Shown: positions 35,516-49,686 of the stretch, in pieces
Position numbering within the stretch: position 1 is the stretch's first letter
Layout of the letters: every line of letters begins with the position of its first letter
NCBI GenBank assembly: GCA_023251075.1
Contig: JAHEZM010000007.1
Coordinates: forward strand, 1 to 64,000
Length of the DNA stretch: 64,000 nt
Direction: 5' to 3'
Source of the DNA: Flavobacteriales bacterium
GTDB taxonomy: Bacteria; Bacteroidota; Bacteroidia; Flavobacteriales_C; GCA-002722245
Notes under the pieces: generated by a model
What the model saw: the letters and a program-made list of their open reading frames with translations, nothing else
What the model was told of the DNA's origin: nothing
Database searches by the model: none
Made by a program: the position numbers and the translations under genes

Positions 35516-36484
35516 TTAACAACACCCACCACCATCATAAAACCAAGTACTATCGCTCACAAAAATATCTTCGCGGTTTAAGTTCTTTATTGACGATGCT
35601 GTTTTATCGCAAACCGAAAGCGGTTGATTGTTCATTAGAACGTGTCCTTTTTTGTCGTCGAAATATTCTTCTTTACCAAAATAAATCGCCGATTTTCCAG
35701 TGAATACACAGGGGCCATCGGCAGGCACAGGGTCTTTTATGGCGCACACTTCCGCACTTTCAATAAAAATGTTTTCGGGGGTTTGGTAATGCATAGGAGA
35801 TAAGACTCTATATGGTCTTCTAGCACGAATCTCAATAGTGCCAAACCCAGCATCGGTTAACATTTTAATGTACACTTCTAAAGGCAAAGCTCCACTTAAA
35901 CACAAAGCGCGTAAGCGATCATCTTGTTTTAAATTTTGAGGCATGGCTGTTTTACAAACAGGATCACTCAACACCAATCGGCCATGGGGCTTTAAAACGC
36001 GGTACATTTCTGCAATCGCCTTTTTTAAATCGGCATGTGTAAAAATATTGAACAAACAATTTTGAGCTGCTACATCAATCGAGTTATCGGCAACAGGCAA
36101 TTGTAAAGCATCGCCTTTTTTTAAATCAACAAATTCTGCTTTAAACCAATCGTTTTCTTTCTCTGCTTGTTTGAAATTATTTTTGCTGGCATTGAGCATT
36201 TCATCTACCACATCAACACCTATCACACCGCCAACTTTTCTGCTGAAATAAGCAAACTGCAACAATTCCATTCCGCCACCTACTCCTACATACAAGATAT
36301 TGGGATTGTTCACCAAGTCGCGAGGGTGCACAGTGCTACCACAACCATAATTCATTTCCTGCATAATTTTGGGAATGCTTAATCCTGGCAACTGCCAAAC
36401 AGGTGTAGTAGTGCAGCACAAACCAACATCAGGTTTTAACGCAGCTTCTTTATAAACATCTTTGGTAACTTCTAAATAACCCAT
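35516..36484 (-). CDS. arsM: Arsenosugar-type arsenite methyltransferase ArsM
   Basis: 322 residues. It transfers methyl groups from S-adenosylmethionine to trivalent arsenic in the cytoplasm, giving dimethylarsenite for arsenosugar synthesis. The N-terminal block PDVGLCCTTTPVWQLPGL...MNYGCGSTVHPRDL, with its conserved Cys residues, is diagnostic of the arsenosugar-associated clade. SAM motifs follow (ILYVGVGGGMELLQFAYF, GVIGVDVV, DALQLPVADNSIDVAAQNC). The C-terminus has the added domain with PADGPCVFTGKSAIYFG and the ending DGGGCC, a Cys pair that probably binds arsenic. It is the last gene of a six-gene operon (PiT to arsM), 2 bp after the glycosyltransferase gene. Confidence 0.92.
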   Translation of the reverse strand: MGYLEVTKDVYKEAALKPDVGLCCTTTPVWQLPGLSIPKIMQEMNYGCGSTVHPRDLVNNPNILYVGVGGGMELLQFAYFSRKVGGVIGVDVVDEMLNASKNNFKQAEKENDWFKAEFVDLKKGDALQLPVADNSIDVAAQNCLFNIFTHADLKKAIAEMYRVLKPHGRLVLSDPVCKTAMPQNLKQDDRLRALCLSGALPLEVYIKMLTDAGFGTIEIRARRPYRVLSPMHYQTPENIFIESAEVCAIKDPVPADGPCVFTGKSAIYFGKEEYFDDKKGHVLMNNQPLSVCDKTASSIKNLNREDIFVSDSTWFYDGGGCC

Positions 36485-36486
36485 AA

Positions 36487-37989
36487 CTATTGATTTGAAT
36501 ATTTTGATTGAAATACCGAGTAATAAAATACAATTGAAAAACCAACGAATAGCATTGCATGATAAATGAGTAAACTAAAATCGCGTAAAAGCAACCCTTT
36601 AATAATACCAAATAAAAAATACAAAGCTAAAACTCCTTCCATCACAGTTAATAACGAAATTCGATACCCTATATAGTTGTTGTTCTCCCATTTGTCATTT
36701 TTCGATAACACATTGAATTTAGGAGTGCGGATAAAGGGTGATTTTCTTCCAACATATCCTTCTATTACGGCTATAGCATTATGTAAAGACAATCCCATGC
36801 TAACCATTAGAAACATCGGGAATGTTTTAAAAAAATACCTAACCCCTCCTTCATTTTTTTTAGCAGTGGATAACGACGATACAAAATATAAAAAACCTAT
36901 CACTACAAAGCTGAAAAGAAAAATCCCTAAAGCATTCAATAGCTGTTTATATTCTGGAAAAACAGGCTTTAATAATAACATTGGAACACTAAGTAAGGCC
37001 GAAAGAATAATACTGATAAAAACAGCACTATTCATCAAATGGAAAAAGGCGTGAAATTTGGTGTTTAAAGAAATGTCAGATTTCATTACTTTCCACAATA
37101 ATTTGCGTGCATTTTCCGCACCACCTTTAGTCCAGCGATACTGCTGCGATTTTATAGCTCCCATCACCGGAGGTAATTCTGCCGGAGAAGTAATGTCTTC
37201 TAAATACACAAATTTCCATCCATTCAATTGCGCTCTATAACTCAAATCAAAATCTTCTGTTAAGGTATCAGCGTGCCAGTTGCCCGCATCGTAAATGCAC
37301 GATTTTCTCCATATCCCTGCAGTGCCATTAAAATTAATGAAAGAGCCGCCTACATTTCGTCCTTTTTGCTCAATGGTAAAATGTGCATCTAAGCCAAATG
37401 CTTGTAATTTGGTAAGTAAAGAATATTCTTTGTTGAGATGTTCCCATCGAGTTTGAACCATCCCTATTTTATCATTAGTAAAATGAGATAAAGTGTTTCT
37501 TAAAAAGAAAGCATCGGGAATAAAATCAGCATCGAAAATCGCAATAAATTCCCCTTTTGCTATGTCCATTGCTTCTTTTAATGCTCCCGCTTTATAACCC
37601 ACTCGATTAACACGGTGAATGTGAACGATATCAAAACCATTTTCTCTTGCTGCTTGAATTTTATCGGAAATAATTGAGGTGGTATCATCGGTAGAATCAT
37701 CTAATACTTGAATTTCCAATTTGTTTTTTGGGTAATTCATTTTCAAAACAGCATCAATCAGTCGTTCTACCACATAGCGTTCATTATATACAGGTAGTTG
37801 AATAGTTACAAGGGGTTCTATGTTTACAGTTAATGGATTAGCTTTTTTTCTTTTTGCCTTTATATACCGAAACACCAATTGTGCTTGAGCAATACTGTAC
37901 AAGAAAATAAACAACATTGAAATACAAAAAAGCACAATGATAGTAATCATAATAATTTTCAAAAATCCGAAACGAACAATATTCTCCAT
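36487..37989 (-). CDS. Cellulose-synthase-like processive family 2 glycosyltransferase
   Basis: 500 residues. An N-terminal membrane helix (about 10-35) is followed by a cytoplasmic GT-A domain with PLVTIQLPVYNERYVVERLI, VLDDSTDDTTSII, the DxD in IFDADFIP, TEDFDLSYRAQLNGW and the QxxRW motif (QQYRWTKGGAEN). About four further helices close the protein. D, DxD, ED and QxxRW together are those of CESA/CslA-type enzymes that build beta-linked chains and push them through the membrane. Its place between the Fe-S protein and arsM (gaps 1 and 2 bp) ties it to arsenosugar metabolism; whether it glycosylates an arsenical or builds a polysaccharide is open. Confidence 0.88.
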   Translation of the reverse strand: MENIVRFGFLKIIMITIIVLFCISMLFIFLYSIAQAQLVFRYIKAKRKKANPLTVNIEPLVTIQLPVYNERYVVERLIDAVLKMNYPKNKLEIQVLDDSTDDTTSIISDKIQAARENGFDIVHIHRVNRVGYKAGALKEAMDIAKGEFIAIFDADFIPDAFFLRNTLSHFTNDKIGMVQTRWEHLNKEYSLLTKLQAFGLDAHFTIEQKGRNVGGSFINFNGTAGIWRKSCIYDAGNWHADTLTEDFDLSYRAQLNGWKFVYLEDITSPAELPPVMGAIKSQQYRWTKGGAENARKLLWKVMKSDISLNTKFHAFFHLMNSAVFISIILSALLSVPMLLLKPVFPEYKQLLNALGIFLFSFVVIGFLYFVSSLSTAKKNEGGVRYFFKTFPMFLMVSMGLSLHNAIAVIEGYVGRKSPFIRTPKFNVLSKNDKWENNNYIGYRISLLTVMEGVLALYFLFGIIKGLLLRDFSLLIYHAMLFVGFSIVFYYSVFQSKYSNQ

Positions 37990-37990
37990 T

Positions 37991-39373
37991 TTACAAATTC
38001 AATGTTTTATTTTTTATATCAATTGGTCCGCTAGAAATTCGTCCTTCTTCGGATCCATTTTCTAACTTTAATACTCCACGCGGACAAACAGCCGAGCACA
38101 CGCCACAACCCACACACGAAGCTCGTACAATGTTTTCTCCTTTTTGAGCGTAGGCACGCACATCAATTCCTTGTTCACAATAAGTAGAACAATTTCCACA
38201 AGAAATGCATTGGCCGCCATTGGTAGTAATTCTGAATCGAGATTTAAAACGTTGAAACAAACCCATGTATCCGGCCATCGGGCAACCGAATCGGCACCAA
38301 ACTCTATTGCCCAACACAGGATAAAATCCAACACCAATTACACCCGAGAATGCAGAGCCAATTAAAAAGCCGTAGGGCTGGCGCAAGTAATCGTAAATAC
38401 TTAATCCGAAAATTTCGCTAACACCTGCAAAGTATCCGTAAAGAACTCCTGCTGTCATTAAAAAAACAAACACCATCACCGAATGAATCATCCATCTTTC
38501 AAGCTTCCATGCCGACAATTTTTTCGATGACAATTGACGGAAAGAATCTCCCGCTGTTTCAGCCAAGCCGCCGCAACCACACACCCAACTGCAATACCAT
38601 CTTTTGCCAACGTAGTAGGTAATAACAGGCGTTATAATTAAGAAACCAGCAATGCCCCACACCAAATAAAACATGCCCATTGAGCCACTTTGCTGCATAT
38701 TATTTAAGTGCCACTCATCAAAAAAATAGTAGTTCAAGGGCCAGAAATTTTTTAAATCTTTGGTGAAATATGCTTGCTCTTGATTCAGTCCTTCCAATAT
38801 TTCAGGAATAAAATAAGCCAGGAAAAACTGAGCGATGATGACTACCGTTGTTCTGATTAATTGGTAACGATTGTGTCGATACTTCAACATGAACTTTATT
38901 CCCAAAGCAACAATACAAACTGTATAAATTGTACCGTAAACAAACCATTGAGAAGCCGCTTGATTTTTAAACCACATCGACAAAGGATCAAACAATGCAA
39001 TTAATCCACGATTGGTATTTCCATTTTCTCCCAAGCCCAAAAATTCAGGAAACCAATACAAAAAAATATAAAAAGAAGTTAATACAATTCCTATTATCCA
39101 ACCTACCACACCTCTCGATGATAAAGAGGAATGATACACTCCATTGTTTTTAATTCCCTCAAGTTGGGTTAAATATTTTCTTGCAGAAAAAACAACTGTA
39201 CCCAATACAATGCTACTAATAGAAACAGTAAGAAACAGAGCGTTGTTTTCAAAAGTATAGCCGAACCAAGTCGCCAATAAGATGATAATTCCCACTGAGG
39301 CTAATGCCAACCCCAGCTTTTCAAACACATCTATTTTAGGATGCGGATTCGATATCGATAAATCGTTACTCAT
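37991..39373 (-). CDS. Membrane 4Fe-4S ferredoxin-type protein (NapH/NosR-like)
   Basis: 460 residues with about seven membrane segments. The NapH-type cysteine motifs RWYCSWVCGCGGLAE and RVWCRFGCPMAGYMG lie at membrane edges. The C-terminal domain has two ferredoxin clusters, CISCGNCSTYCEQGIDV and CVGCGVCSAVCPRGVLK. Such proteins carry electrons between the quinone pool or reduced carriers and periplasmic or cytoplasmic partners. It overlaps the FAD oxidoreductase by four bases (ATGA), so the two probably form an electron-transfer pair. Their acceptor in this operon is unknown; arsenic redox change is one possibility. Confidence 0.9.
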   Translation of the reverse strand: MSNDLSISNPHPKIDVFEKLGLALASVGIIILLATWFGYTFENNALFLTVSISSIVLGTVVFSARKYLTQLEGIKNNGVYHSSLSSRGVVGWIIGIVLTSFYIFLYWFPEFLGLGENGNTNRGLIALFDPLSMWFKNQAASQWFVYGTIYTVCIVALGIKFMLKYRHNRYQLIRTTVVIIAQFFLAYFIPEILEGLNQEQAYFTKDLKNFWPLNYYFFDEWHLNNMQQSGSMGMFYLVWGIAGFLIITPVITYYVGKRWYCSWVCGCGGLAETAGDSFRQLSSKKLSAWKLERWMIHSVMVFVFLMTAGVLYGYFAGVSEIFGLSIYDYLRQPYGFLIGSAFSGVIGVGFYPVLGNRVWCRFGCPMAGYMGLFQRFKSRFRITTNGGQCISCGNCSTYCEQGIDVRAYAQKGENIVRASCVGCGVCSAVCPRGVLKLENGSEEGRISSGPIDIKNKTLNL

Positions 39374-40650
39374 GACAGTTGATTTTGAAAAGCATTATTA
39401 ATTTCTTTTTCGTGGTATTTATAAAACTCTGGATCAAAGTTCGCCGCCGCCAATTTATTCATCACGTCTTTCACTGCTGTTTTATTCGTAATCCATTTGT
39501 CGCATACTTCGTGTCGCATTCTAATGCCAAAAGCGTTGAACCCTAAAACAGCTTGTGTAGTTTTATCGAAAACAATTCTAAACGATTTTTTGCCGTCTTG
39601 GTGTTCCCAATAAAAGGTGGCTTCATTTTCTTTTAAGGATGCATTTACCATTCCATAGGTTTGGTATTCGATATCGAAAAATTTTGCAGAATTAAACCAG
39701 TTTCCTGGCGCATAGGCTTTTTTATTTCCTAAAATAGTGTGCGCTACAGTTTCACCATGTTCTTTACCAGTGTACCAAACTTGCTCTAAATTTCTTCTTC
39801 CTGGCAATGCTTGTTTAAATTGAGCGCAATCTCCAATGGCATAAACATCAGAGACATTGGTTTCAAAATATTCGTTAATAAGTATGCCTCTATCAAGAGG
39901 AATAGCGCTCGATTTCAAAAATTCAATATTCGGACTCACACCCACTGTTAATCCCACAAAAGAGCAAGGTATTTCTTGTTCTTTACTGGTAGTGATGGCG
40001 TTTACTTTTTCACTTCCTTTGATTTCCTTTAGTTCGGTTTCCATTTGCAAATCGATACCATATTCGCGAATATGTCGCTCAATCATTTTCGATTCTTCTT
40101 TGGGTAGAACAGCTCCCCAAAAATCTTTTTCACGAACCAAAAACGAAACATGAATTCCTCTTGAATGAAGCATCTCAGCCATTTCAACGCCAATGAGTCC
40201 GCCACCCACCACCACCGCAGAGGAAATACCTTTTGTATTTTCTTCCATTGCTAATAAATCCTGATAATTAAACAAGCCTTGAACTCCTTTCAAATCTTGT
40301 CCGGGCCAACCAAACTTATTCGATTTAGATCCACAAGCCAAAACCAAACTATCGTAAAACAGAGCAGTACCATCTGAGAAATGAAGTTGTTTTTTTGAAG
40401 TATCTATTTTTTGTACGAAACGATGCACCAACTCTATTCTGTTTTTCTCCCAAAACCAATTTTCGTAAGGCTGAGTATTTTCAAAAGGCATGTGGCCCAT
40501 ATACACATACATCAATGCCGTACGCGAATAAAAGTATTTAGTCTCGGCAGAGATTAACGTGATTTTACAGGCACTATCGAGTTTGCGCAATGAACGCGCG
40601 CACGTAACGCCTGATATCCCATTCCCTATAATTACAATATTTCTACTCAT
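39370..40650 (-). CDS. FAD-dependent pyridine-nucleotide-type oxidoreductase
   Basis: 426 residues. The FAD dinucleotide-binding motif is IVIIGNGISGVTCARSLRK (about 4-22), followed by SLVLACGSKSN, a second GxGxxG for NAD(P)H (SAVVVGGGLIGVEMAEML) and YAIGDCAQFKQ near the flavin. The fold is that of NirB-N/rubredoxin reductase-like proteins. The C-terminal part is less typical and ends with DUF-like helices. It would oxidise NAD(P)H and pass electrons to a redox protein; the co-transcribed Fe-S membrane protein is the natural candidate. It overlaps DUF547 by 8 bp and the Fe-S gene by 4 bp. Confidence 0.9.
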   Translation of the reverse strand: MSRNIVIIGNGISGVTCARSLRKLDSACKITLISAETKYFYSRTALMYVYMGHMPFENTQPYENWFWEKNRIELVHRFVQKIDTSKKQLHFSDGTALFYDSLVLACGSKSNKFGWPGQDLKGVQGLFNYQDLLAMEENTKGISSAVVVGGGLIGVEMAEMLHSRGIHVSFLVREKDFWGAVLPKEESKMIERHIREYGIDLQMETELKEIKGSEKVNAITTSKEQEIPCSFVGLTVGVSPNIEFLKSSAIPLDRGILINEYFETNVSDVYAIGDCAQFKQALPGRRNLEQVWYTGKEHGETVAHTILGNKKAYAPGNWFNSAKFFDIEYQTYGMVNASLKENEATFYWEHQDGKKSFRIVFDKTTQAVLGFNAFGIRMRHEVCDKWITNKTAVKDVMNKLAAANFDPEFYKYHEKEINNAFQNQLS

Positions 40651-41389
40651 TCAAATTCCAATTGTATGTTAAGTAGTTAACCTTTGCTTTATCGTTAATT
40701 TTCACTTTCGAATATTTGTTTAAAAAAGCGATAATGGTTCCGTCCTTAGTGAAGTCGGCAGTAAACCATGAAAATATTTCCGACAATTGTACTTTATCGG
40801 CTGTTATAATATTTCTTTTAGGGTCGTTAATAAAATCTATAGCTGCGGTTTCCAATTGCTTTTCAATGTTGACGGAGGCAAAAGCAGTATTTAATAATTT
40901 CGGACATGAATACGATGCACAAACGATAGCAAAGTGAATACGGGGCTCGGCAAATTTTTTACGAAGTATATCGTTCTCAATATTGTTTAAAGTCATTTTA
41001 TTTTTTCCGACCATAAAAAACTTTTCATCCCAGGGCGTTGTAATGTTTTTAATACTTTTGATTGGGTAATTCTTCAAAATCAATTTTATAGTAAAGGCAT
41101 TGTAAGCATTAATCCAATAAGCCAATTTTTCGTTATTGTTCCAAGTACTATCATTAGGTGGATTTTTGCTTAAAAGCGATAAGTATTTCTCAAAAGCAAC
41201 GCTATCTTTTTTAAACCCTTTGTAATTTACTTTACCGTCGATACTAACATGCTTTCTAAGCAGCGTATCAAATCCAACGTGAGATATAGGTTTAGTAAGC
41301 GTTCCTGCAAAATGTTCTGCTGGCGAAAAAGAATAGGTAATTAAAAGCATACCTGCTATTACTATAAACGAAAAAATAATTATTCTCAT
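40643..41389 (-). CDS. DUF547 domain protein, exported or membrane-anchored
   Basis: 248 residues from the ATG at 41389, which gives an N-terminal hydrophobic anchor (MRIIIFSFIVIAGMLLITYS). The DUF547 core follows, with FDTLLRKHVSIDGKVNYKGF, EKLAYWINAYNAFTIKLIL, EKFFMVGKNKMTLNNIENDI and the Cys-His stretch PRIHFAIVCASYSCPKL. The domain has a papain-like look (Cys and His conserved) but no proven activity. It is often found near arsenosugar and redox genes in this phylum, from memory. Its ATG overlaps the PiT stop by four bases. Confidence 0.85.
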   Translation of the reverse strand: MRIIIFSFIVIAGMLLITYSFSPAEHFAGTLTKPISHVGFDTLLRKHVSIDGKVNYKGFKKDSVAFEKYLSLLSKNPPNDSTWNNNEKLAYWINAYNAFTIKLILKNYPIKSIKNITTPWDEKFFMVGKNKMTLNNIENDILRKKFAEPRIHFAIVCASYSCPKLLNTAFASVNIEKQLETAAIDFINDPKRNIITADKVQLSEIFSWFTADFTKDGTIIAFLNKYSKVKINDKAKVNYLTYNWNLNE

Positions 41390-42495
41390 AACATCAATTT
41401 TAAAAATAGATAAAACATTGTACTCAGTAATGCTGCTGAAGGTAAAGTAAGTAGCCATGATAAGGCTATTTCTTTTATTACTTTCCAATTTGCTTTTTTA
41501 TTCGCAATTCCTATACCCGTTAATGCTCCCACAGAAACATGAGTAGTAGAAGCTGGCAAACCATGAACACTCGCCGTTGACACCAATATTGCAGTTGTTA
41601 AATTTGCTGTAAAACCCTGTCCGTCGTTCATTTTTGTGATTTTTTCGCTCATTGTTTCTGCTACTTTTTTAGCGTTTAAAATTCCGCCTATGGCAATAAA
41701 AGCAGCAATAGCCAAAATAGATATAGAAGAATTAAGGGTAGATATCAATAAAAGTATGCCCGCCATTTTAGGTGTATCATTCAATCCACGAGAAAAACTC
41801 ACCACTCCGGCACTTAAACAGTGTAATAGATTTAGAGTAAAGACAGCTGAAATTCCTACAAAATTTCCAGTATAATTTTCTTTACAAACAGCCGAGCTGT
41901 TTATTTTAATTTGCACATTTTTTTTTGCATCCATCGCTAACGAATGGCTCTGCGCATTACATTCTATAGTTTCACCAACGCAAACACAAGTTTCTTTATT
42001 AACCCCCATTTTTAATCTCAAGCTAGAAAAAACAAGATATAGAAGGTAAGCTATGGCTAAAGCAATGAATGGACTTACAAGTAAAGGCACAAAAAAAGTT
42101 GATCCTAATTTTGTAAAATTAAAATCACCCCTTGAGGCTACAATACCAACACCGCTCAACGCACCCACTAAACTGTGTGTAGTTGAAATTGGCATTCCAA
42201 TACGTGTAGCCAAAAACACTGTTGAAGCAGCACCCAAAGCCACAGAAACAGCAAATTCAGGTGCATACAATAAGGCGTCATCAATCAGGCCTTTTCCTGA
42301 AAAGTTCTTAAGTAATACTTCCGCAAAAAAAACAGAAGCGATGGAACCCAATAGTGTTGAGAAAGTAGCCCATGCAATAGCTTTCTTGTAATTTAAAGTA
42401 CCACTACCCAACAAGGTGGCAACACCTTTGAAATTATCGTTAGCTCCATTCGAGAAAGCTAAAAACAAAACAGCAATAAAACTTAGAAAAATCAT
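41386..42495 (-). CDS. PiT-family inorganic phosphate transporter
   Basis: 369 residues, about ten membrane helices in two inverted repeats. The PiT signatures are SNGANDNFKGVATLLGSG in the first half and SRGLNDTPKMAGILLL in the second, plus paired PISTTHSLVGALSGVG and PASTTHVSVGALTGIG loops. PiT carriers import phosphate with a cation and also take up arsenate, which they hardly distinguish. It is the first gene of the operon that ends in arsM, so it may bring in arsenate as substrate or restore phosphate uptake when arsenate competes (inference). The central loop has Cys residues (KETCVCVGETIECNAQSH). Confidence 0.92.
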   Translation of the reverse strand: MIFLSFIAVLFLAFSNGANDNFKGVATLLGSGTLNYKKAIAWATFSTLLGSIASVFFAEVLLKNFSGKGLIDDALLYAPEFAVSVALGAASTVFLATRIGMPISTTHSLVGALSGVGIVASRGDFNFTKLGSTFFVPLLVSPFIALAIAYLLYLVFSSLRLKMGVNKETCVCVGETIECNAQSHSLAMDAKKNVQIKINSSAVCKENYTGNFVGISAVFTLNLLHCLSAGVVSFSRGLNDTPKMAGILLLISTLNSSISILAIAAFIAIGGILNAKKVAETMSEKITKMNDGQGFTANLTTAILVSTASVHGLPASTTHVSVGALTGIGIANKKANWKVIKEIALSWLLTLPSAALLSTMFYLFLKLML

Positions 42496-42652
42496 GCATC
42501 TAAGGTAGGTTTAGGGAATTGAATTAAATGTCTGCTAAGCGACAAAATAGAATTTAAAAAACACATACTTTTTTTAAAAAAAATAACTAATTGTCTTCTA
42601 TAAGACTTTTTTTCGCCTTGTTGTTTTCCATTTTTACAACAAATAAATCATC

Positions 42653-43159
42653 ATGATTAAACATCTGCAAAATAATTTATCTGAAATTTCTCAGTTGATT
42701 CAAAAACTAAACAACAAACAGTATTCAGAAAAACAAGAAGTGCTATCATTTGCATCTATTGGGCAGCATGTTCGACACGTGCTGGAATTTTACATTTGCT
42801 TGCTTTTTGAGGTGAAAGCAGGAGTGGTTTCATATGAGAAACGAAAGCGAGACCTTCGCATTGAAAACGATATTCATTTCGCTATTCAAACGATTGACTC
42901 AATCAACGCTGAGCTTTCAGAAATCACCCAAGATTTACCGCTTAAGCTAACTTTTATTTTTGCCTTGGAACCCTCATGCTTAGAAATAATTAACACGACT
43001 TTGTATCGAGAATTAGCTTACAATATGGAACATTGTGTTCATCACCAAGCTTTAATAAAAATCGGACTAAACAATCTTACAGAGGATATAAAAATAAGCG
43101 ATTCATTTGGTGTTTCAGCCGCCACCATTCAATACCGAAATTTGCAATGTGCACAGTAA
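42653..43159 (+). CDS. DinB-like four-helix metal-site protein
   Basis: 168 residues, all-helical. His residues lie where the DinB/YfiT superfamily places its metal triad: ASIGQHVRHVLEFYICL in helix 2 and EHCVHHQALIKIGLN in helix 4. DinB-type proteins are thiol- or metal-dependent transferases (bacillithiol, mycothiol) or have no known activity. It starts a five-gene plus-strand operon divergent from the arsM operon (157-bp gap). Its stop lies 13 bp inside the NRDE gene. A thiol-transferase role would fit arsenic chemistry, but this is inference. Confidence 0.7.
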   Translation: MIKHLQNNLSEISQLIQKLNNKQYSEKQEVLSFASIGQHVRHVLEFYICLLFEVKAGVVSYEKRKRDLRIENDIHFAIQTIDSINAELSEITQDLPLKLTFIFALEPSCLEIINTTLYRELAYNMEHCVHHQALIKIGLNNLTEDIKISDSFGVSAATIQYRNLQCAQ

Positions 43160-43890
43160 CTTTTATTCCGAATAAATCGGGTTTTTATTTGAGCTCGAAC
43201 AGAGACGAAATAATCACAAGGCAAACCATAAAACCTATGGAATATAGGGTGAAAGGCAAAAATCTTATTTTTCCAAAAGATATTCTTTCTAATGGTTCAT
43301 GGATTGCTATGGATGAAAACGGAAATGTTTCGTGCTTGCTAAACGGTGCTTTTGTAAAGCATAAAAAAGATAAAGTGTACAGTAAAAGTCGCGGACAAGT
43401 TTTACTCGAAAGTCTTTTGTTCGACTCAGTAGAATTTTTTGTTAACGCCGTTCTACTTGAAAATGTTGAACCATTTACACTGCTCATTCTTAAGAATAAC
43501 GCTAACGAATTATTCTTTTATGAGCTTAAGTGGGATGGGAAAAACAAGCACATAAAGAAATTAGATAATCACAGTGCGCAAATATGGTCATCGGTCACTT
43601 TGTATTCCAACGAAATCATTGCCCGTAAAAATAAACACTTTGAAGAATTTTTGCTGAATTTTTCAAACCCTAATGCAAGTGAAATATTTAATTTTCATCA
43701 ATCTAACAAAGATATTAATGATGGGGGACTGTTGTTAAAAAATGAAGTACTTAGAACGGTAAGTATTAGTCAGATTTGCCTTGATAATGAAAAAACAATT
43801 TTTACTTACCAAGACTTGTTGTTAAATGAACGATCTGAAATTGAAAATACTCTTTCCTATTCTACAAAAAACCAAGACCAAACATTATGA
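43147..43890 (+). CDS. NRDE/TANGO2-family protein
   Basis: 247 residues from the ATG at 43147. The start MCTVTFIPNKSGFYLSSNRDE carries the diagnostic Cys2 and NRDE motif of the family (the Ntn-hydrolase-like fold). PMEYRVKGKNLIFPKDILSN, GSWIAMDENGNVSCLLNGAF and ILKNNANELFFYELKWDG follow. TANGO2 relatives have been linked to haem handling and acyl-CoA metabolism; the bacterial function is unknown. It overlaps the DinB-like gene by 13 bp and the next gene by 4 bp, so the operon is tightly coupled. Confidence 0.87.
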   Translation: MCTVTFIPNKSGFYLSSNRDEIITRQTIKPMEYRVKGKNLIFPKDILSNGSWIAMDENGNVSCLLNGAFVKHKKDKVYSKSRGQVLLESLLFDSVEFFVNAVLLENVEPFTLLILKNNANELFFYELKWDGKNKHIKKLDNHSAQIWSSVTLYSNEIIARKNKHFEEFLLNFSNPNASEIFNFHQSNKDINDGGLLLKNEVLRTVSISQICLDNEKTIFTYQDLLLNERSEIENTLSYSTKNQDQTL

Positions 43891-44726
43891 AAAATATTAT
43901 TATTATTCCACTTTTCTTATTATCAACTATTGTATTTGCTGGGGGAGGATGGGTACCCAATAAAGGTGAAGGTTTCTTTATGTTGTCGCAACGCTCCATT
44001 TCGGGAAATTATTATTTCTCGGAAAAAGGTACAGCAGTAAATTCGCCCAATTTTTCAATCTTAACAACTAATGTTTTTGCGGAGTATGGCTTAGGTAAAA
44101 AATGGGCTGCTTTACTATACAGTCCATTTATCACCATTGCCCAACAGGGCTCAGGCATCGACCAACTTGGAAATAATTTCACAGCTGATAAAGCATTGGG
44201 ATTAGGTGACATTGATTTAGGATTGAAATACAATTTTTACAATAAAACATTTGTAGCATCGGCTTCATTATACATTGGCATTCCCAGCGGTAACTATAAC
44301 GCTGGCAACACCAAAAATCTTCATTTGGGCGATGGCGATTTAAGTCAGCTATTTCGATTAGATGCTAGCCAATCTTTCGGTAAAAATTACGCCAATATTT
44401 ATGCTGGATTCAACAATAGAAACGCCTATTTCTCAGATGATGTTCAATTTGGCGCCGAGGCAGGTCGTCGATTTCCATCTTTGTACCTCATACTAAAAAT
44501 TGATGCAAGATTGCCTTTGTACAACGGCAGCAGAAATGAAACAGAAAGTTTTGGTATTTATTCAAACAACTTAAGTTACCTGGGTATAACACCGCAAATT
44601 CTTTATGAATTTAAAAATAACTTCGGACTTTCATTAGAAGCTGGTTTCGCGGCATTTGGCAAAAATATTATTGCCGCTCCTTCTATCACTGCCGGACTTT
44701 TTTACAAACTAAAAAAGAAAAATTAA
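43887..44726 (+). CDS. Outer-membrane beta-barrel protein of unknown function
   Basis: 279 residues: signal peptide MKNIIIIPLFLLSTIVFA, then GGGWVPNKGEGFFMLSQRS and a chain of short amphipathic strands (KWAALLYSPFITIAQQ, LGLGDIDLGLKYNFYN, LEAGFAAFGKNIIA). LGLGDIDLGLKY is typical of the Phenol_MetA_deg/transporter-like barrel group. It could form a small channel in the outer membrane. ATGA overlap with the NRDE gene and 1-bp gap to the ATP-grasp gene. The substrate is unknown. Confidence 0.72.
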   Translation: MKNIIIIPLFLLSTIVFAGGGWVPNKGEGFFMLSQRSISGNYYFSEKGTAVNSPNFSILTTNVFAEYGLGKKWAALLYSPFITIAQQGSGIDQLGNNFTADKALGLGDIDLGLKYNFYNKTFVASASLYIGIPSGNYNAGNTKNLHLGDGDLSQLFRLDASQSFGKNYANIYAGFNNRNAYFSDDVQFGAEAGRRFPSLYLILKIDARLPLYNGSRNETESFGIYSNNLSYLGITPQILYEFKNNFGLSLEAGFAAFGKNIIAAPSITAGLFYKLKKKN

Positions 44727-44727
44727 G

Positions 44728-45726
44728 ATGCGTAATTTATGGAAAACCATTAGTGCCTTTGAGTTTTGGCCCTCTTATGTTTTCTATGCTCCTTTCTTTT
44801 TTGTTTGGGTATATTATTGCCTAAGGTCGCGCAGCATACTTTATTTTTCGGTGGTTAACCATCACGTTGCTTTTGGCGGACTTCTTAGGTATTCAAAGTA
44901 CGAGATGATTAAGAATTTAAAAAAGGAAAGTGTAGTTTTTTCAAAATTGTACGAAGAAAAACCTAGCGATATTTTTTTTTACCAAAGTGATTTTAATTTC
45001 CCTTTTATCATTAAACCTAATGCCGGAGAAAGAGGAAAAGACGTTCATCTGGTTCGTAATATAGAGCAATGGCAAAGTATCTATCAGCACATTAACCAAT
45101 CCTTTATTTTGCAAGAGTACAATGACAGCGCTATTGAACTGGGCATACTATATTACCGCTATCCATCAGGTTATTCAAACATAAGTTCTATAGTAATAAA
45201 AGAATTTTTAAAGGTTAAAGGCGATGGAAAAAAAACACTTAAAAGTTTGGTGGAAGAAAATTTGCGCGCCAAAAAAAGAGCAAACTATTTTCAACAAAAA
45301 TTTGCTACGCTTTGGTTAACTATACTTCCCGATGGAAAAGAATTACTGCTGGAAGAAATAGGTAATCACTGCCGAGGCACCGTATTTAAAGATGCCAATC
45401 ATTTAATAAACAAAAAGCTAGTGACGGTGTTTGATGACATTGTGCGCAACGATGCCCATTTTCATTATGGTAGATTCGATTTAAAAGTAAATTCAATCGA
45501 GGAAATGTACGAAGGAAAAGGGATTCAAATTTTTGAATTAAATGGCGTTAACTCAGAGGCGGCACATATTTATCAACCCGGACAATCATTGCTTAAAGCC
45601 TATAGAGATGTGCTGTTTCATTATACTGTGGTTTACACAATTTCCAAAGAACTTCGCTCACGCGGGCTTAAACCAAAAGAGAGTATTGGCGAATTCTACA
45701 ACGCTTTCAAATTACATTACAGTTAA
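44728..45726 (+). CDS. ATP-grasp-fold ligase-like protein
   Basis: 332 residues. An N-terminal hydrophobic stretch (FWPSYVFYAPFFFVWVYY) suggests membrane contact. The ATP-grasp core shows NFPFIIKPNAGERGKDVHLV (nucleotide-binding Lys), FILQEYNDSAIELGILYYRY (adenine hinge and Glu), DAHFHYGRFDLKV and the Mg-binding IQIFELNGVNSEAAHI. It therefore probably joins a carboxylate to an amine or thiol with ATP. Database names such as D-Ala-D-Ala ligase would be over-precise. Its place in this operon hints at a peptide or conjugate made in the arsenosugar region, without proof. Confidence 0.8.
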   Translation: MRNLWKTISAFEFWPSYVFYAPFFFVWVYYCLRSRSILYFSVVNHHVAFGGLLRYSKYEMIKNLKKESVVFSKLYEEKPSDIFFYQSDFNFPFIIKPNAGERGKDVHLVRNIEQWQSIYQHINQSFILQEYNDSAIELGILYYRYPSGYSNISSIVIKEFLKVKGDGKKTLKSLVEENLRAKKRANYFQQKFATLWLTILPDGKELLLEEIGNHCRGTVFKDANHLINKKLVTVFDDIVRNDAHFHYGRFDLKVNSIEEMYEGKGIQIFELNGVNSEAAHIYQPGQSLLKAYRDVLFHYTVVYTISKELRSRGLKPKESIGEFYNAFKLHYS

Positions 45727-45737
45727 AATAAAAAATT

Positions 45738-46193
45738 ATGTTACACTTAAAAACTATCCTTATTTCTTTGGCTGCCGTAGCTGTTCTTTTAACCATAGAA
45801 GAAAAACATTTTAACCACCAAAAAAATATTTTTATAGAAGGTTATGATGTGGTTTCCTACTTCAGTCAAAAACCAACAAAAGGAACAAAAGCAAATGAAG
45901 TAATTTATAATGGTTTGCACTTTTATTTTGCAAATGCAACAAACAAAGAAAAATTCAATAAAAATCCAAACAGCTACTTGCCCCAGTACGGCGGTTGGTG
46001 TGCTTATGCTATGGCGCTTAATGCAGAAAAAGTAAGCGTTGATCCTAAAACCTACAAGATAGTAAACGGAAAGTTGCTTTTATTTTACAACAGCTTTGGA
46101 ACAAATACTCTAGAGAAATGGAACGCATGGAAAAACGATGGGCTACACATTACAAAAGCAGATGCCAATTGGAAATTGATTTTGCAAAAATAA
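45738..46193 (+). CDS. Exported YHS-domain protein
   Basis: 151 residues with an N-terminal hydrophobic anchor (LHLKTILISLAAVAVLLTI). The YHS-type domain then reads FIEGYDVVSYFSQKPTKGT, IYNGLHFYFANATNKEKF, NPNSYLPQYGGWCAYAMALN, the form of YHS-domain (seleno)proteins. The conserved Cys in GGWCAYAM is normal Cys (TGT). YHS domains often bind metals. It is the last gene of the divergent operon, 11 bp after the ATP-grasp gene. Its exact role is unknown. Confidence 0.85.
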   Translation: MLHLKTILISLAAVAVLLTIEEKHFNHQKNIFIEGYDVVSYFSQKPTKGTKANEVIYNGLHFYFANATNKEKFNKNPNSYLPQYGGWCAYAMALNAEKVSVDPKTYKIVNGKLLLFYNSFGTNTLEKWNAWKNDGLHITKADANWKLILQK

Positions 46194-46380: not shown

Positions 46381-46923
46381 TTATATCTTGTCTGCACGTT
46401 TGTAATATAGTTGTGCAAGTCCAGATTTAAACTGCTTTACTGAAACAAGTGTTAACTCTTGTTCAGGCCTACCGTCCTTGAAAAGTCGTGTGCCTTCACC
46501 AAGTAATACCGGAATGATTGAAATTATAACCTCATCAATTAGTTGCTCTTTGAGAAGTTCTGTAACAATTTCTGCACCACCATCACAATAAATGTTTTTA
46601 CCTTTTTCTTCCTTTAGATTGCGAACAAGTTCACTCAAGTTTTCAGTATAAAATTTTGTTTTCCCGATGTCTGGTCGTTTTGTTCGTGTAATAACGTATG
46701 TGTCAGTGTCGGGATGTGGCACTCCGCCAATTTGTTTCATTACCCAGTCAAAAGTTTTCCGCCCCATTATTACCGTGTCAATAGATTTTTTTAAATCATC
46801 ATAACCATAATCTTCTCCTGTGCTTTGAATAAGCGAAAGGAAACTTAGGTCGTCATTTGGTTTGGCGATGTAACCGTCCAAACTTGCTGCGATGTATAAA
46901 ATTACTTTTCTGTCTTTTGTCAT
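46381..46923 (-). CDS. Dihydrofolate reductase family protein (RibD C-terminal-like)
   Basis: 180 residues. The fold shows KVILYIAASLDGYIAKPND (N-terminal strand and substrate loop), DTVIMGRKTFDWVMKQ, DTYVITRTKRPDIG, GKNIYCDGGAEIVTELL and IISIIPVLLGEGTRLFKDG. It belongs to the RibD_C/YyaP group, pyridine-nucleotide reductases without proven folate activity. It sits alone on the minus strand between the two arsenosugar operons and is flanked on both sides by repeat-rich noncoding DNA, as expected for a gene acquired as a cassette. Resistance function is not implied. Confidence 0.88.
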   Translation of the reverse strand: MTKDRKVILYIAASLDGYIAKPNDDLSFLSLIQSTGEDYGYDDLKKSIDTVIMGRKTFDWVMKQIGGVPHPDTDTYVITRTKRPDIGKTKFYTENLSELVRNLKEEKGKNIYCDGGAEIVTELLKEQLIDEVIISIIPVLLGEGTRLFKDGRPEQELTLVSVKQFKSGLAQLYYKRADKI

Positions 46924-47130: not shown

Positions 47131-47994
47131 CTAAAACGGATTTTTAAATTGCGATAAAAAACCTTTAGGAAATTTTTCTACTCCTTTAAAACCTAGTTTT
47201 ATGCTTCCTTTTTCATCGGGAATATAGGCTGTGTGAAATAGATAATCCCAAATGCTTAACGACAAACCGAAATTCACTCCCTGCTCGCGCCCTTTAGGCA
47301 TTTCGTAAGCGTGATGCCACAAATGCATCACTGGATTATTGAATACATATTTCAACGGACCATAAGTGAGTTTAATATTGGCATGATTCAAATGACCTAT
47401 TGCCAAAGTAAAAATATGCACAATGAAAAAATCTTCTAAGCCAAAACCAATCATCGCCAAAGGCACATACTGTATGCTTTTGTAAATTACACTTTCCATC
47501 CAATGAAAACGCAAATGCGCAGCAAATCCCATTTCTTCCACCGAATGATGTACTTTGTGAAAACGCCATAAAAAAGGAAAGCGATGTAGCATGCGGTGAA
47601 TGTTCCACTGAATGAAGTCGGCCACCACAAAAATCGTAATAAACTTTGCCCAACGAGGCCAATGTTCAATATGCAAGGCAACAATATTTTTGTACCCAAA
47701 GAGTGATAAGAAATCGTGAAAAAGATTTACACCCACATTCGATAAGGCATTAAATCCAGTCAAGGAAAAAAGAAAGAAATTGAAAAGCATATAAAAGGCA
47801 TCGAGCCAAAAATCTTTACGAAAGGCAGCTTGCTCTTTTCGCCAAGGAAAAAGAAGCTCTATAAGCCAAACCAATAAAGAAAGACCTATAAGCCAATACA
47901 AATAGTTGTGCCAAGACAAATTAGACAACTCAAAATAAAGATAGTTTGCGTAGTCAAAAAAAGAGTGTTCGATAATATCGAAATACTTATCCAT
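47131..47994 (-). CDS. Sterol-desaturase/fatty-acid-hydroxylase family membrane di-iron protein
   Basis: 287 residues with about five membrane segments. The eight-His di-iron signature is complete: HRMLHRFPFLWRFHKVHH (HxxxH and HxxHH), then HLRFHWME, NHANIKL and MHLWHHAYEMP. Family members hydroxylate or desaturate lipids, or act on carotenoids or ether lipids, using O2 in the membrane. The gene follows the TIGR04282-type glycosyltransferase with a 3-bp gap, so it is co-transcribed with arsS. An action on the lipid part of an arsenolipid is an attractive but untested idea. Confidence 0.88.
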   Translation of the reverse strand: MDKYFDIIEHSFFDYANYLYFELSNLSWHNYLYWLIGLSLLVWLIELLFPWRKEQAAFRKDFWLDAFYMLFNFFLFSLTGFNALSNVGVNLFHDFLSLFGYKNIVALHIEHWPRWAKFITIFVVADFIQWNIHRMLHRFPFLWRFHKVHHSVEEMGFAAHLRFHWMESVIYKSIQYVPLAMIGFGLEDFFIVHIFTLAIGHLNHANIKLTYGPLKYVFNNPVMHLWHHAYEMPKGREQGVNFGLSLSIWDYLFHTAYIPDEKGSIKLGFKGVEKFPKGFLSQFKNPF

Positions 47995-47997
47995 ATT

Positions 47998-48603
47998 CTA
48001 ATTAACCTTTCTCCTTTTTTCAAGCATTATATAATCTCTTTCTTCATCAATATCATTCAAGATGGGCAATAATTCAAAACTTAATTCATCGTTAATAATA
48101 TCTTGTATAGTTGCTGCCATCACTGTATCACATCCCCAAATTTTATTTCCAAACAAAGAAGGATGTAATTTTTTCATGCCCAATAAATAATAACCACCGT
48201 CGGCAGCAGGTCCAAGCACCACATCTTTATAATCTAAAATAGAAAAAGCATTTTCAATTATATCACTTGTTAATTCCAAGCAATCGCTGCCGATGATAAT
48301 CACTTTAGAAAACCCCGCAGCAAACTGTTCTTGAAAAGCATTTTTCATTCTTTCTCCCAAATCACTGCCACGCTGTATTTTTTGCTCAAACCCTTCGCTC
48401 AACCACGCATCATTTTCTTCCAACTTATCAGAATAATACACTACCTTTTGAGCACTTATTTCTTTAGTTATATTTCTGGTGTAGAGCAGCAAATTCAAAT
48501 ATATTTCTAGTGCTTTTTGTTCTCCCATAGTAGCCGCCAATCGGGTTTTTACTTTACCCAAAACCGCATTGCGAACAAAAACCATTAGCACTTTACTTGT
48601 CAT
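47998..48603 (-). CDS. TIGR04282-family arsenosugar-associated glycosyltransferase
   Basis: 201 residues of the DUF2064/GT-A-like group: LMVFVRNAVLGKVKTRLAAT at the start, QRGSDLGERMKNAFQEQF, KVIIIGSDCLELTSDIIENA with the Asp motif, and VVLGPAADGGYYLLGMKKL. This family is defined by its linkage to radical SAM arsenosugar genes. It probably transfers a sugar to or from an arsenoribose intermediate in the cytoplasm. It lies 36 bp after arsS and 3 bp before the desaturase gene. Confidence 0.9.
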   Translation of the reverse strand: MTSKVLMVFVRNAVLGKVKTRLAATMGEQKALEIYLNLLLYTRNITKEISAQKVVYYSDKLEENDAWLSEGFEQKIQRGSDLGERMKNAFQEQFAAGFSKVIIIGSDCLELTSDIIENAFSILDYKDVVLGPAADGGYYLLGMKKLHPSLFGNKIWGCDTVMAATIQDIINDELSFELLPILNDIDEERDYIMLEKRRKVN

Positions 48604-48639
48604 AAGTTTTCTTCATTTTGGCTTTTGATTTTTAACTTT

Positions 48640-49686
48640 TTACTTGCTAGTAATAGCGCCCTGACAACTGCTTCCGGCTCCTGCCGTGCAACCGTAGCAA
48701 TGCTGACCCAAAACGATATTTCTTTTGTTTAAAACCTCTAAATTATATTGTGAAATATGTTGAGAAGAAGAAGTCTCCACTTCCAATTCCAACATTTGAT
48801 TAAAATCGCAATCATATAAATAACCATCCCAACTTACAGACAAAGTGTTTCTACACATTAAGCCATTAATAGCTTGTGGATTGAAAGAGCTAGCCAATAA
48901 ACGCATATAATTTTCATATTTTTCAGTCGCCAAAAGATACTCTAAAAACCGACTAATGGGCATATTCGTTATCGTGTACAAATGATTAAAAATAACTTCA
49001 TGCTTTTCACTTAAAATTCGCTTGTAATCAAGTTCCAACTTCATCTGATCTCCTGGCAAGCTGGCTCCACCTGGGTTAAATACAAAATCCAATTCCAAAC
49101 CAGTATTTTCTTTGCCATATCCCAAATCGTTCAGCAGCTTAATAGCTTCAATTGATTTTTTAAAAACACCATCACCTCTTTGTTTATCGGTATTTTCTTC
49201 GGTATAGCAGGGTAAAGACGCAATTACTTTAATGTTGTTCTCTGCAAAAAACGCAGGGTACTCTCGGTACTTTTTGTTGGCAACCAAAATGGTTAAATTG
49301 CATCGAACTATTACCTGTTTACCTAATGCTCTAATTTCTTTAACAAACCATTGGAAATCAGGATTCATTTCGGGTGCGCCTCCGGTAAGGTCCACAATGG
49401 TGATGGAGGGCGTTTGTTTTAAAGCATTTATACATTGCTGCATTGTTTCTTTAGTCATGATTTCTTCACGATCCGGACCAGCATCAACATGGCAATGCTC
49501 ACAAACCTGATTACACATCTTTCCTACATTTACTTGCATTATTTCTAGAACGGTGGGCGTAAAAGGAAAACGATTTAATGTTTTTATCTGTTCATGAAAA
49601 GGGGGAACATGCGTTGTTTCCTTCAATCTTTTAAGCTGATAGGAAGTATCGGCAACAATATTTTTTTTAGCTTTTAATGTTTTCAT
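48640..49686 (-). CDS. arsS: Arsenosugar biosynthesis radical SAM protein ArsS
   Basis: 348 residues. The radical SAM cluster motif is CNQVCEHCHVDAGPDRE (about 58-74), followed by TIVDLTGGAPEMNPDFQWFV (the GGE-like strand). The C-terminal DUF3641 region has NGLMCRNTLSVSWDGYLYDCDFNQML and the closing LGQHCYGCTAGAGSSCQGAI, rich in Cys. ArsS adds a 5'-deoxyadenosyl group to dimethylarsenite, making the precursor of oxo-arsenosugars. With arsM 12 kb away on the same strand, the pathway core is complete in this window. It is first in its operon; the closest upstream gene is divergent. Confidence 0.94.
   Translation of the reverse strand: MKTLKAKKNIVADTSYQLKRLKETTHVPPFHEQIKTLNRFPFTPTVLEIMQVNVGKMCNQVCEHCHVDAGPDREEIMTKETMQQCINALKQTPSITIVDLTGGAPEMNPDFQWFVKEIRALGKQVIVRCNLTILVANKKYREYPAFFAENNIKVIASLPCYTEENTDKQRGDGVFKKSIEAIKLLNDLGYGKENTGLELDFVFNPGGASLPGDQMKLELDYKRILSEKHEVIFNHLYTITNMPISRFLEYLLATEKYENYMRLLASSFNPQAINGLMCRNTLSVSWDGYLYDCDFNQMLELEVETSSSQHISQYNLEVLNKRNIVLGQHCYGCTAGAGSSCQGAITSK

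Follow-up and report, generated by a model that had tools for sequence, protein, structure and literature searches.

What five tightly packed genes of obscure function do together is the question raised by positions 42653-46193 of a 64,000-nucleotide stretch of contig JAHEZM010000007.1 from a Flavobacteriales bacterium (GenBank assembly GCA_023251075.1), the whole of which is referred to here as the window. Our preferred, though tentative, reading is that they may be the window's version of a conserved membrane operon acting on N-acyl-amino-acid lipids such as ornithine and glycine lipids, and this module probably modifies, moves or recycles aminolipids rather than handling arsenic. Its observed basis is gene association, conservation, protein folds and, in other lineages, adjacency to OlsF-type or OlsB/OlsA-type synthases. 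The operon core consists of an ATP-grasp protein, a DinB-superfamily protein, an NRDE/TANGO2-like protein and a YHS protein, and in most cases a membrane partner of DedA/VTT or LysE-like type goes with it. A literature search on this gene combination found no description of it.

Layout of the locus and its recurrence in Bacteroidota

The module and the region before it are arranged as follows (bp, base pairs).

42496..42652, no strand: intergenic stretch, placed from the coordinates, that separates the module from the divergent PiT gene; the module promoter would be expected here
42653..43159, + strand: DinB-superfamily protein, 168 residues; weak Pfam DinB match, alignment of 24 sequences
43147..43159, + strand: 13-bp overlap ATGTGCACAGTAA, the end of the DinB gene (CAQ stop) and the start of the NRDE gene (MCTV)
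43147..43890, + strand: NRDE/TANGO2-family protein, predicted N-terminal-Cys hydrolase, 247 residues
43887..44726, + strand: predicted secreted beta-barrel-like protein, 279 residues; 4-bp overlap with the NRDE gene
44728..45726, + strand: ATP-grasp carboxylate-amine ligase, 332 residues, with hydrophobic N-terminal helices; 1-bp gap before it
45738..46193, + strand: YHS (seleno)protein-family member, 151 residues, secreted or membrane-anchored to judge from its hydrophobic N-terminus; 11-bp gap before it

A preliminary description, made from the window's letters alone, had proposed that these five + strand genes form one unit of an uncharacterised pathway, head to head with the arsM operon and ahead of the arsS operon. 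The coordinates bear out the overlaps of 13 and 4 bp, the gaps of 1 and 11 bp and the placement, with a PiT transporter gene starting the arsM-side run and ArsS lying downstream at 48640-49686. The NRDE gene has its true start within the last bases of the DinB gene, at the ATG of position 43147, and its protein reads MCTVTF...NRDE. The GC content of the module (0.345) resembles that of the window (0.356), so base composition gives no hint that the module arrived recently.

Across 395 sampled Bacteroidota genomes, the ATP-grasp protein and the divergent NRDE subfamily to which the window protein belongs are widespread and often neighbours. Gene maps drawn for 40 loci around NRDE matches revealed a recurrent order of Crp/Fnr-type regulator, peroxiredoxin-like, YHS, DoxX, DinB, NRDE, ATP-grasp and LysE-like membrane protein genes. 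Within 6 kilobases (kb) of ATP-grasp at 51 Bacteroidota loci, DinB was found 38 times, NRDE 28 times (a count that leans high, as many loci were first found via NRDE), YHS 23 times and DoxX 17 times, and 22 Bacteroidota loci hold a LysE-like gene. NRDE and ATP-grasp are even one fused protein in two genomes (L076 and L078). Of 30 DinB/NRDE pairs, 28 show the 13-bp overlap with near-identical sequence, mostly ATGTGYACAGTAA, and those of Salinivibrio and of a conjugative Emticicia plasmid are among them. On the plasmid, pEMTOL01 (L008 2795-8702), the DinB-NRDE pair has the same overlap and no ATP-grasp gene nearby, and the run also holds peroxiredoxin-like, thioredoxin, FAD oxidoreductase and GDCCVxC (seleno)protein genes.

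The single-operon proposal is thus strongly supported: far from being conserved nowhere, the gene order is kept across phyla, down to the 13-bp overlap in relatives, and since the association recurs across phyla it goes beyond chance. Three parts lay beyond the sight of the preliminary description: an aminolipid synthase, DoxX, and a membrane protein of LysE-like or VTT type. Conservation close to the window is another matter, the ATP-grasp protein being absent from nine other genomes of the organism's order. A first scan of genome contigs with the window protein as query gave no matches, and a broad alignment (A6) was too diverse to yield a pattern.

Lipid synthases beside the ligase in other lineages

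A tblastn search of plasmids led to Vibrionaceae, where VTT-ATP-grasp-DinB-NRDE occurs in Salinivibrio and Vibrio and where Vibrio adds YHS, DoxX and a PlsC/GNAT fusion protein; the gammaproteobacterial order is VTT(DedA)-ATP-grasp-DinB-NRDE-YHS-DoxX-OlsF. A genome-contig scan with one Vibrio-led alignment (A8) supplied 80 gammaproteobacterial loci, with hosts including Vibrio, Photobacterium, Marinomonas, Enterovibrio, Grimontia, Endozoicomonas, SAR86 and OM182. Near ATP-grasp, the PlsC/GNAT (OlsF-like) gene is present in 76 of these loci, VTT and DinB in 64 each, and NRDE and YHS in 60 each; the ATP-grasp-OlsF pair stands alone in 13. In this larger set DinB and NRDE abut within a few bases instead of overlapping by 13 bp. 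The PlsC/GNAT protein scores 379-440 bits over most of its length against the OlsF model NF052615, under the curated cut-off of 620, and is thus related to the ornithine-lipid synthase OlsF although the NCBI threshold does not call it OlsF.

A third arrangement occurs in other Bacteroidota classes (our guess is Balneolia/Rhodothermia), where a fusion protein of about 770-900 residues has ATP-grasp at its C-terminal side and a VTT domain at its centre; one such fusion (L088) also has an N-terminal alpha/beta hydrolase match. A PF13444 OlsB-type N-acyltransferase (GNAT) lies within 6 kb of the fusion in all 30 of 30 genomes, and the order at the loci read is OlsB-type GNAT, PlsC/OlsA-type acyltransferase, usually DinB, and then the VTT-ATP-grasp fusion. 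Among these, L204-L209 and L228-L231 have the look of a new aminolipid gene cluster. The same ligase thus accompanies fused OlsF-type and separate OlsB/OlsA-type synthases, and of all the evidence this pairing with two different synthase arrangements speaks most strongly for a lipid substrate.

The gammaproteobacterial operon also has a probable counterpart with a published record. V. metoecus (L147) and V. mimicus (L140) carry VTT, ATP-grasp, DinB, NRDE, YHS, DoxX and OlsF in order, and the match to V. cholerae was made through these relatives' loci and published primers. The VCA0649 primer maps to the DinB start (15/18 bases, in V. mimicus only) and the VCA0646 primer to the YHS end (26/30 bases, in V. 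metoecus) (PMC12186959), and VCA0650-1 are annotated as D-Ala-D-Ala ligase and a hypothetical protein (PMC7600106). From the relatives' operons, the primer positions and this annotation, vca0646-0651 is very probably the counterpart of the module operon and probably orthologous to it. The site of the VCA0646 forward primer (L147 9874-9903) is the end of the YHS gene and not the OlsF start; V. cholerae may lack DoxX there or have an unannotated one, and VCA0647 would be YHS or DoxX. The window differs in lacking OlsF, VTT and DoxX and in having a barrel gene. The papers on this second OlsF and quorum-sensing cell-death operon assign no function to most of its genes and contain no description of the larger module.

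The functions of vca0646-0649 are stated as unknown, but the genes are activated by HapR, and their overexpression causes cell death that needs vca0646 and vca0647 and is independent of the type VI secretion system (PMC11573629). VCA0646, an OlsF expressed at low salinity, makes ornithine lipid (PMC12186959). Both observations fit lipid turnover or regulated envelope damage, in which the operon would make and move membrane-permeabilising lysolipids or N-acyl amides and so account for the cell-death effect. However, deletion of vca0646-0649 leaves the death pattern unchanged (PMC11573629), the ATP-grasp gene (VCA0650) is absent from the death constructs, and several module hosts are without OlsF-type genes; we regard envelope damage as distinctly unlikely.

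Predicted activities of the proteins

The ATP-grasp protein matches the RimK-like family weakly (21.5 bits against a cut-off of 21) and is a long branch, weakly placed, in the ATP-grasp tree (support 0.54). The window protein nevertheless has both the fold and the Mg/ATP residues of the superfamily: its AlphaFold model is confident (predicted local distance difference test, pLDDT, 92.7), and K96, D251, E270 and N272, the expected catalytic residues, are invariant in the alignment. The nearest folds are the amide-forming ligases cyanophycin synthetase, glutathione synthetase, ArgX and Ddl, with template modelling (TM) scores by query length of at most 0.55 among the matches listed. D-Ala-D-Ala ligase, the annotation in some gammaproteobacterial genomes, is not supported, the window protein passing no Ddl model above cut-off. 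The module protein shares the ATP-grasp core and Mg/ATP residues with RimK, GshB, cyanophycin synthetase and D-Ala-D-Ala ligase, but hydrophobic N-terminal helices replace the usual first domain. Because of these helices, and of fusion or adjacency to VTT/DedA or LysE-like polytopic proteins, the sequences point to a membrane substrate or product.

By sequence, the nearest relatives of the ATP-grasp protein include glutathione synthetases, which is consistent with a role in redox or thiol stress. Here ATP-grasp would make a small peptide thiol, DinB would be a thiol-S-transferase, NRDE would trim amides, and YHS, DoxX and the peroxiredoxin-like neighbour would handle oxidised envelope thiols. 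DinB-type thiol-S-transferases occur among bacillithiol or mycothiol enzymes, and genes for peroxiredoxin-like, YHS, DoxX and Crp/Fnr-type regulator proteins front many Bacteroidota modules. Moreover, in an iurV mutant of V. cholerae VCA0646-0651 go down along with msrB, copG and genes for thioredoxin and glutaredoxin (PMC7600106). Nevertheless, thiol stress leaves the OlsF/OlsB-type neighbours in two lineages, the DedA fusion and the hydrophobic N-terminus unexplained, and peroxiredoxin did not show up as a constant part of the gammaproteobacterial loci. On balance we consider thiol stress unlikely.

The NRDE protein matches PF05742 TANGO2 with 52.8 bits against a cut-off of 22.6 (E 8e-14). 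It has the Met-Cys start and the NRDE motif (MCTV...SNRDE), and C2, R19 and D20 are invariant across 33 aligned sequences. Its AlphaFold model (pLDDT 91.8), compared with the PDB by Foldseek, matches TANGO2 first (TM 0.73) and then bile salt hydrolases (TM 0.5-0.6) and penicillin V acylases, so that the protein combines the N-terminal nucleophile (Ntn) fold and the N-terminal Cys of a Cys-Ntn hydrolase. Bile salt hydrolases and penicillin V acylases split acyl amides, and fold relatives cleave acyl-taurine and acyl-glycine amides. The fold, the N-terminal Cys2 and the conserved Arg/Asp are common to the module NRDE, TANGO2/HtpA and Cys-Ntn hydrolases of the choloylglycine-hydrolase type. In contrast to TANGO2/HtpA, the module NRDE proteins are a divergent subfamily (scoring about 50-70 bits against PF05742, where canonical members reach 200-275) that is bound in operons to DinB and ATP-grasp.

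This kinship brings in haem trafficking, in which NRDE would be a haem chaperone like HtpA/TANGO2 and the other proteins would aid haem or metal delivery. Shewanella HtpA (SO0126) has been reported to bind haem and to aid cytochrome c synthesis (PMC10470608). However, the structure of human TANGO2 was interpreted as that of a Cys-Ntn hydrolase able to accommodate fatty acids, and the same paper found the haem interactions to be nonspecific (PMC13044924). Together with the divergence of the module subfamily and the fact that no recurrent haem gene was seen in the module, this makes haem trafficking very improbable.

The window DinB protein stays below both Pfam cut-offs (18.4 bits against 23 for DinB and 16 against 24.8 for DinB_2), and an Endozoicomonas protein found by the same profile does pass, with 28.4 bits. 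His 39, 42, 127, 130 and 131 are invariant in the 24 aligned sequences and form a predicted metal site; a search of the PDB with the DinB profile gave no matches. The YHS protein belongs to the NF041384 YHS (seleno)protein family (112.4 bits against a cut-off of 70), is just under the Pfam YHS cut-off (27.9 against 30.3 bits) and has an invariant Cys 88 in its alignment, and its profile matches in the PDB were confined to short stretches of ciliary proteins. Some modules hold two YHS genes, several with two subtypes that differ in the C-terminal half (L060 7307-8245, L076 7425-8442, L070, L212 and L168-L170). The 279-residue protein gave no Pfam match, and we infer its barrel identity from sequence. 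Among the loci read its gene, the outer-membrane barrel of the preliminary description, occurs in the window only.

The aminolipid reading and the arsenic neighbourhood

In the aminolipid reading, the membrane-bound ATP-grasp protein would activate the free carboxylate of an aminolipid as an acyl phosphate and link this to an amine, either taurine or an amino acid; the resulting lipid, with its extended head group, would resemble ornithine-taurine or glycine-serine lipids, both of them known. Transport of substrate or product through the membrane would fall to the VTT or LysE-like partner, and hydrolysis or editing of such amides to the Cys-Ntn NRDE protein; DinB would be a metal-dependent helper, and YHS/DoxX would connect the system with redox or metal stress in the envelope. 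The simplest reading would be a ligase making, and a hydrolase breaking, an amide at the lipid carboxylate; we make no confident prediction of the specific amine. It is possible, though more doubtful than the general reading, that ATP-grasp represents an undescribed family of membrane-bound aminolipid ligases, the kind of enzyme still missing for head-group extension, which would work alongside a dedicated DedA/VTT or LysE-like transporter or flippase and a reversing TANGO2-like amidase; example reactions would be taurine onto ornithine lipid and serine onto glycine lipid. Taurine-ornithine (PMC4484230) and serine-glycine (PMC12493201) lipid head groups exist, and the Ser ligase for the latter lipid is stated to be unidentified (PMC12746155). 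For the acetic acid bacteria, a group known to make ornithine-taurine lipid, the relatives of this ATP-grasp that came to light were confined to Komagataeibacter plasmids. Genes related to the synthases of ornithine (OlsBA, OlsF, OlsHI) and glycine (GlsBA) lipids adjoin ATP-grasp in the gammaproteobacterial and other-class Bacteroidota loci, whereas the known aminolipid pathways in the literature found are without ATP-grasp, DinB, NRDE, YHS and VTT.

Several points weigh against this reading. The whole genome of the window organism holds no PF13444 protein and no OlsF match, and because it is without an OlsB/OlsF/GlsB-type synthase, the aminolipid reading for the window itself would be an extrapolation from relatives. 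Two GH3-like proteins are present in the genome. One member of the GH3 family, OlsH, has been proven to be an N-acyl-ornithine synthetase (PMC12493201), but as the family is common among Bacteroidota it is not diagnostic of aminolipids. PF13444 is lacking in 17 of the 72 Bacteroidota genomes with ATP-grasp; it is present in the other 55, compared with 115 of 323 without ATP-grasp (Fisher p 4e-10, raw counts). As this phylum-wide association weakens to p 0.004 once the fused family is removed, and the statistic ignores phylogeny, we argue from adjacency instead. Adjacency, however, is not activity, and the gammaproteobacterial loci, chosen by similarity to a single alignment, are mutually related.

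The genes around the module suggest a different role, in an arsenosugar or arsenolipid pathway with the surrounding ArsM/ArsS genes, the module sitting between two ars gene runs. We consider this highly improbable and reject the arsenosugar link, as the co-occurrence of module, ArsM and ArsS is not conserved: none of the other loci read has ArsM or ArsS close to the module, and same-family genomes (G003 and G004) have one compact operon of DUF547-ArsS-GlyT (glycosyltransferase)-ArsM without the module. On present evidence, its position between ars genes is a local accident. The preliminary description had envisaged a small-molecule or metal pathway; the small-molecule half is favoured, with the genomics pointing to membrane aminolipids, and neither a metal nor an arsenic role is supported. 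The window's arsenosugar genes are split (35516-42495 and 47131-49686), with the module and extra genes between the parts; extra genes of the split region encode a GT2 glycosyltransferase, a NapH-like ferredoxin, an FAD oxidoreductase, the PiT transporter and a fatty-acid hydroxylase. A dihydrofolate-reductase-like (RibD-type) gene follows the YHS gene on the opposite strand (46381-46923).

In summary, the module links widespread proteins of obscure role, annotated as DinB, NRDE, YHS and ATP-grasp, with one operon, and also ties in a Vibrio quorum-sensing cell-death operon of unexplained mechanism and a second ornithine-lipid synthase. The lipid chemistry concerned, that of ornithine-taurine and glycine-serine lipids, is orphan chemistry, with the ligase stated to be unknown at least for serine. 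In addition, the bacterial operon offers a genetic test of the role of the TANGO2 family, which is debated between haem and acyl-CoA or lipid.

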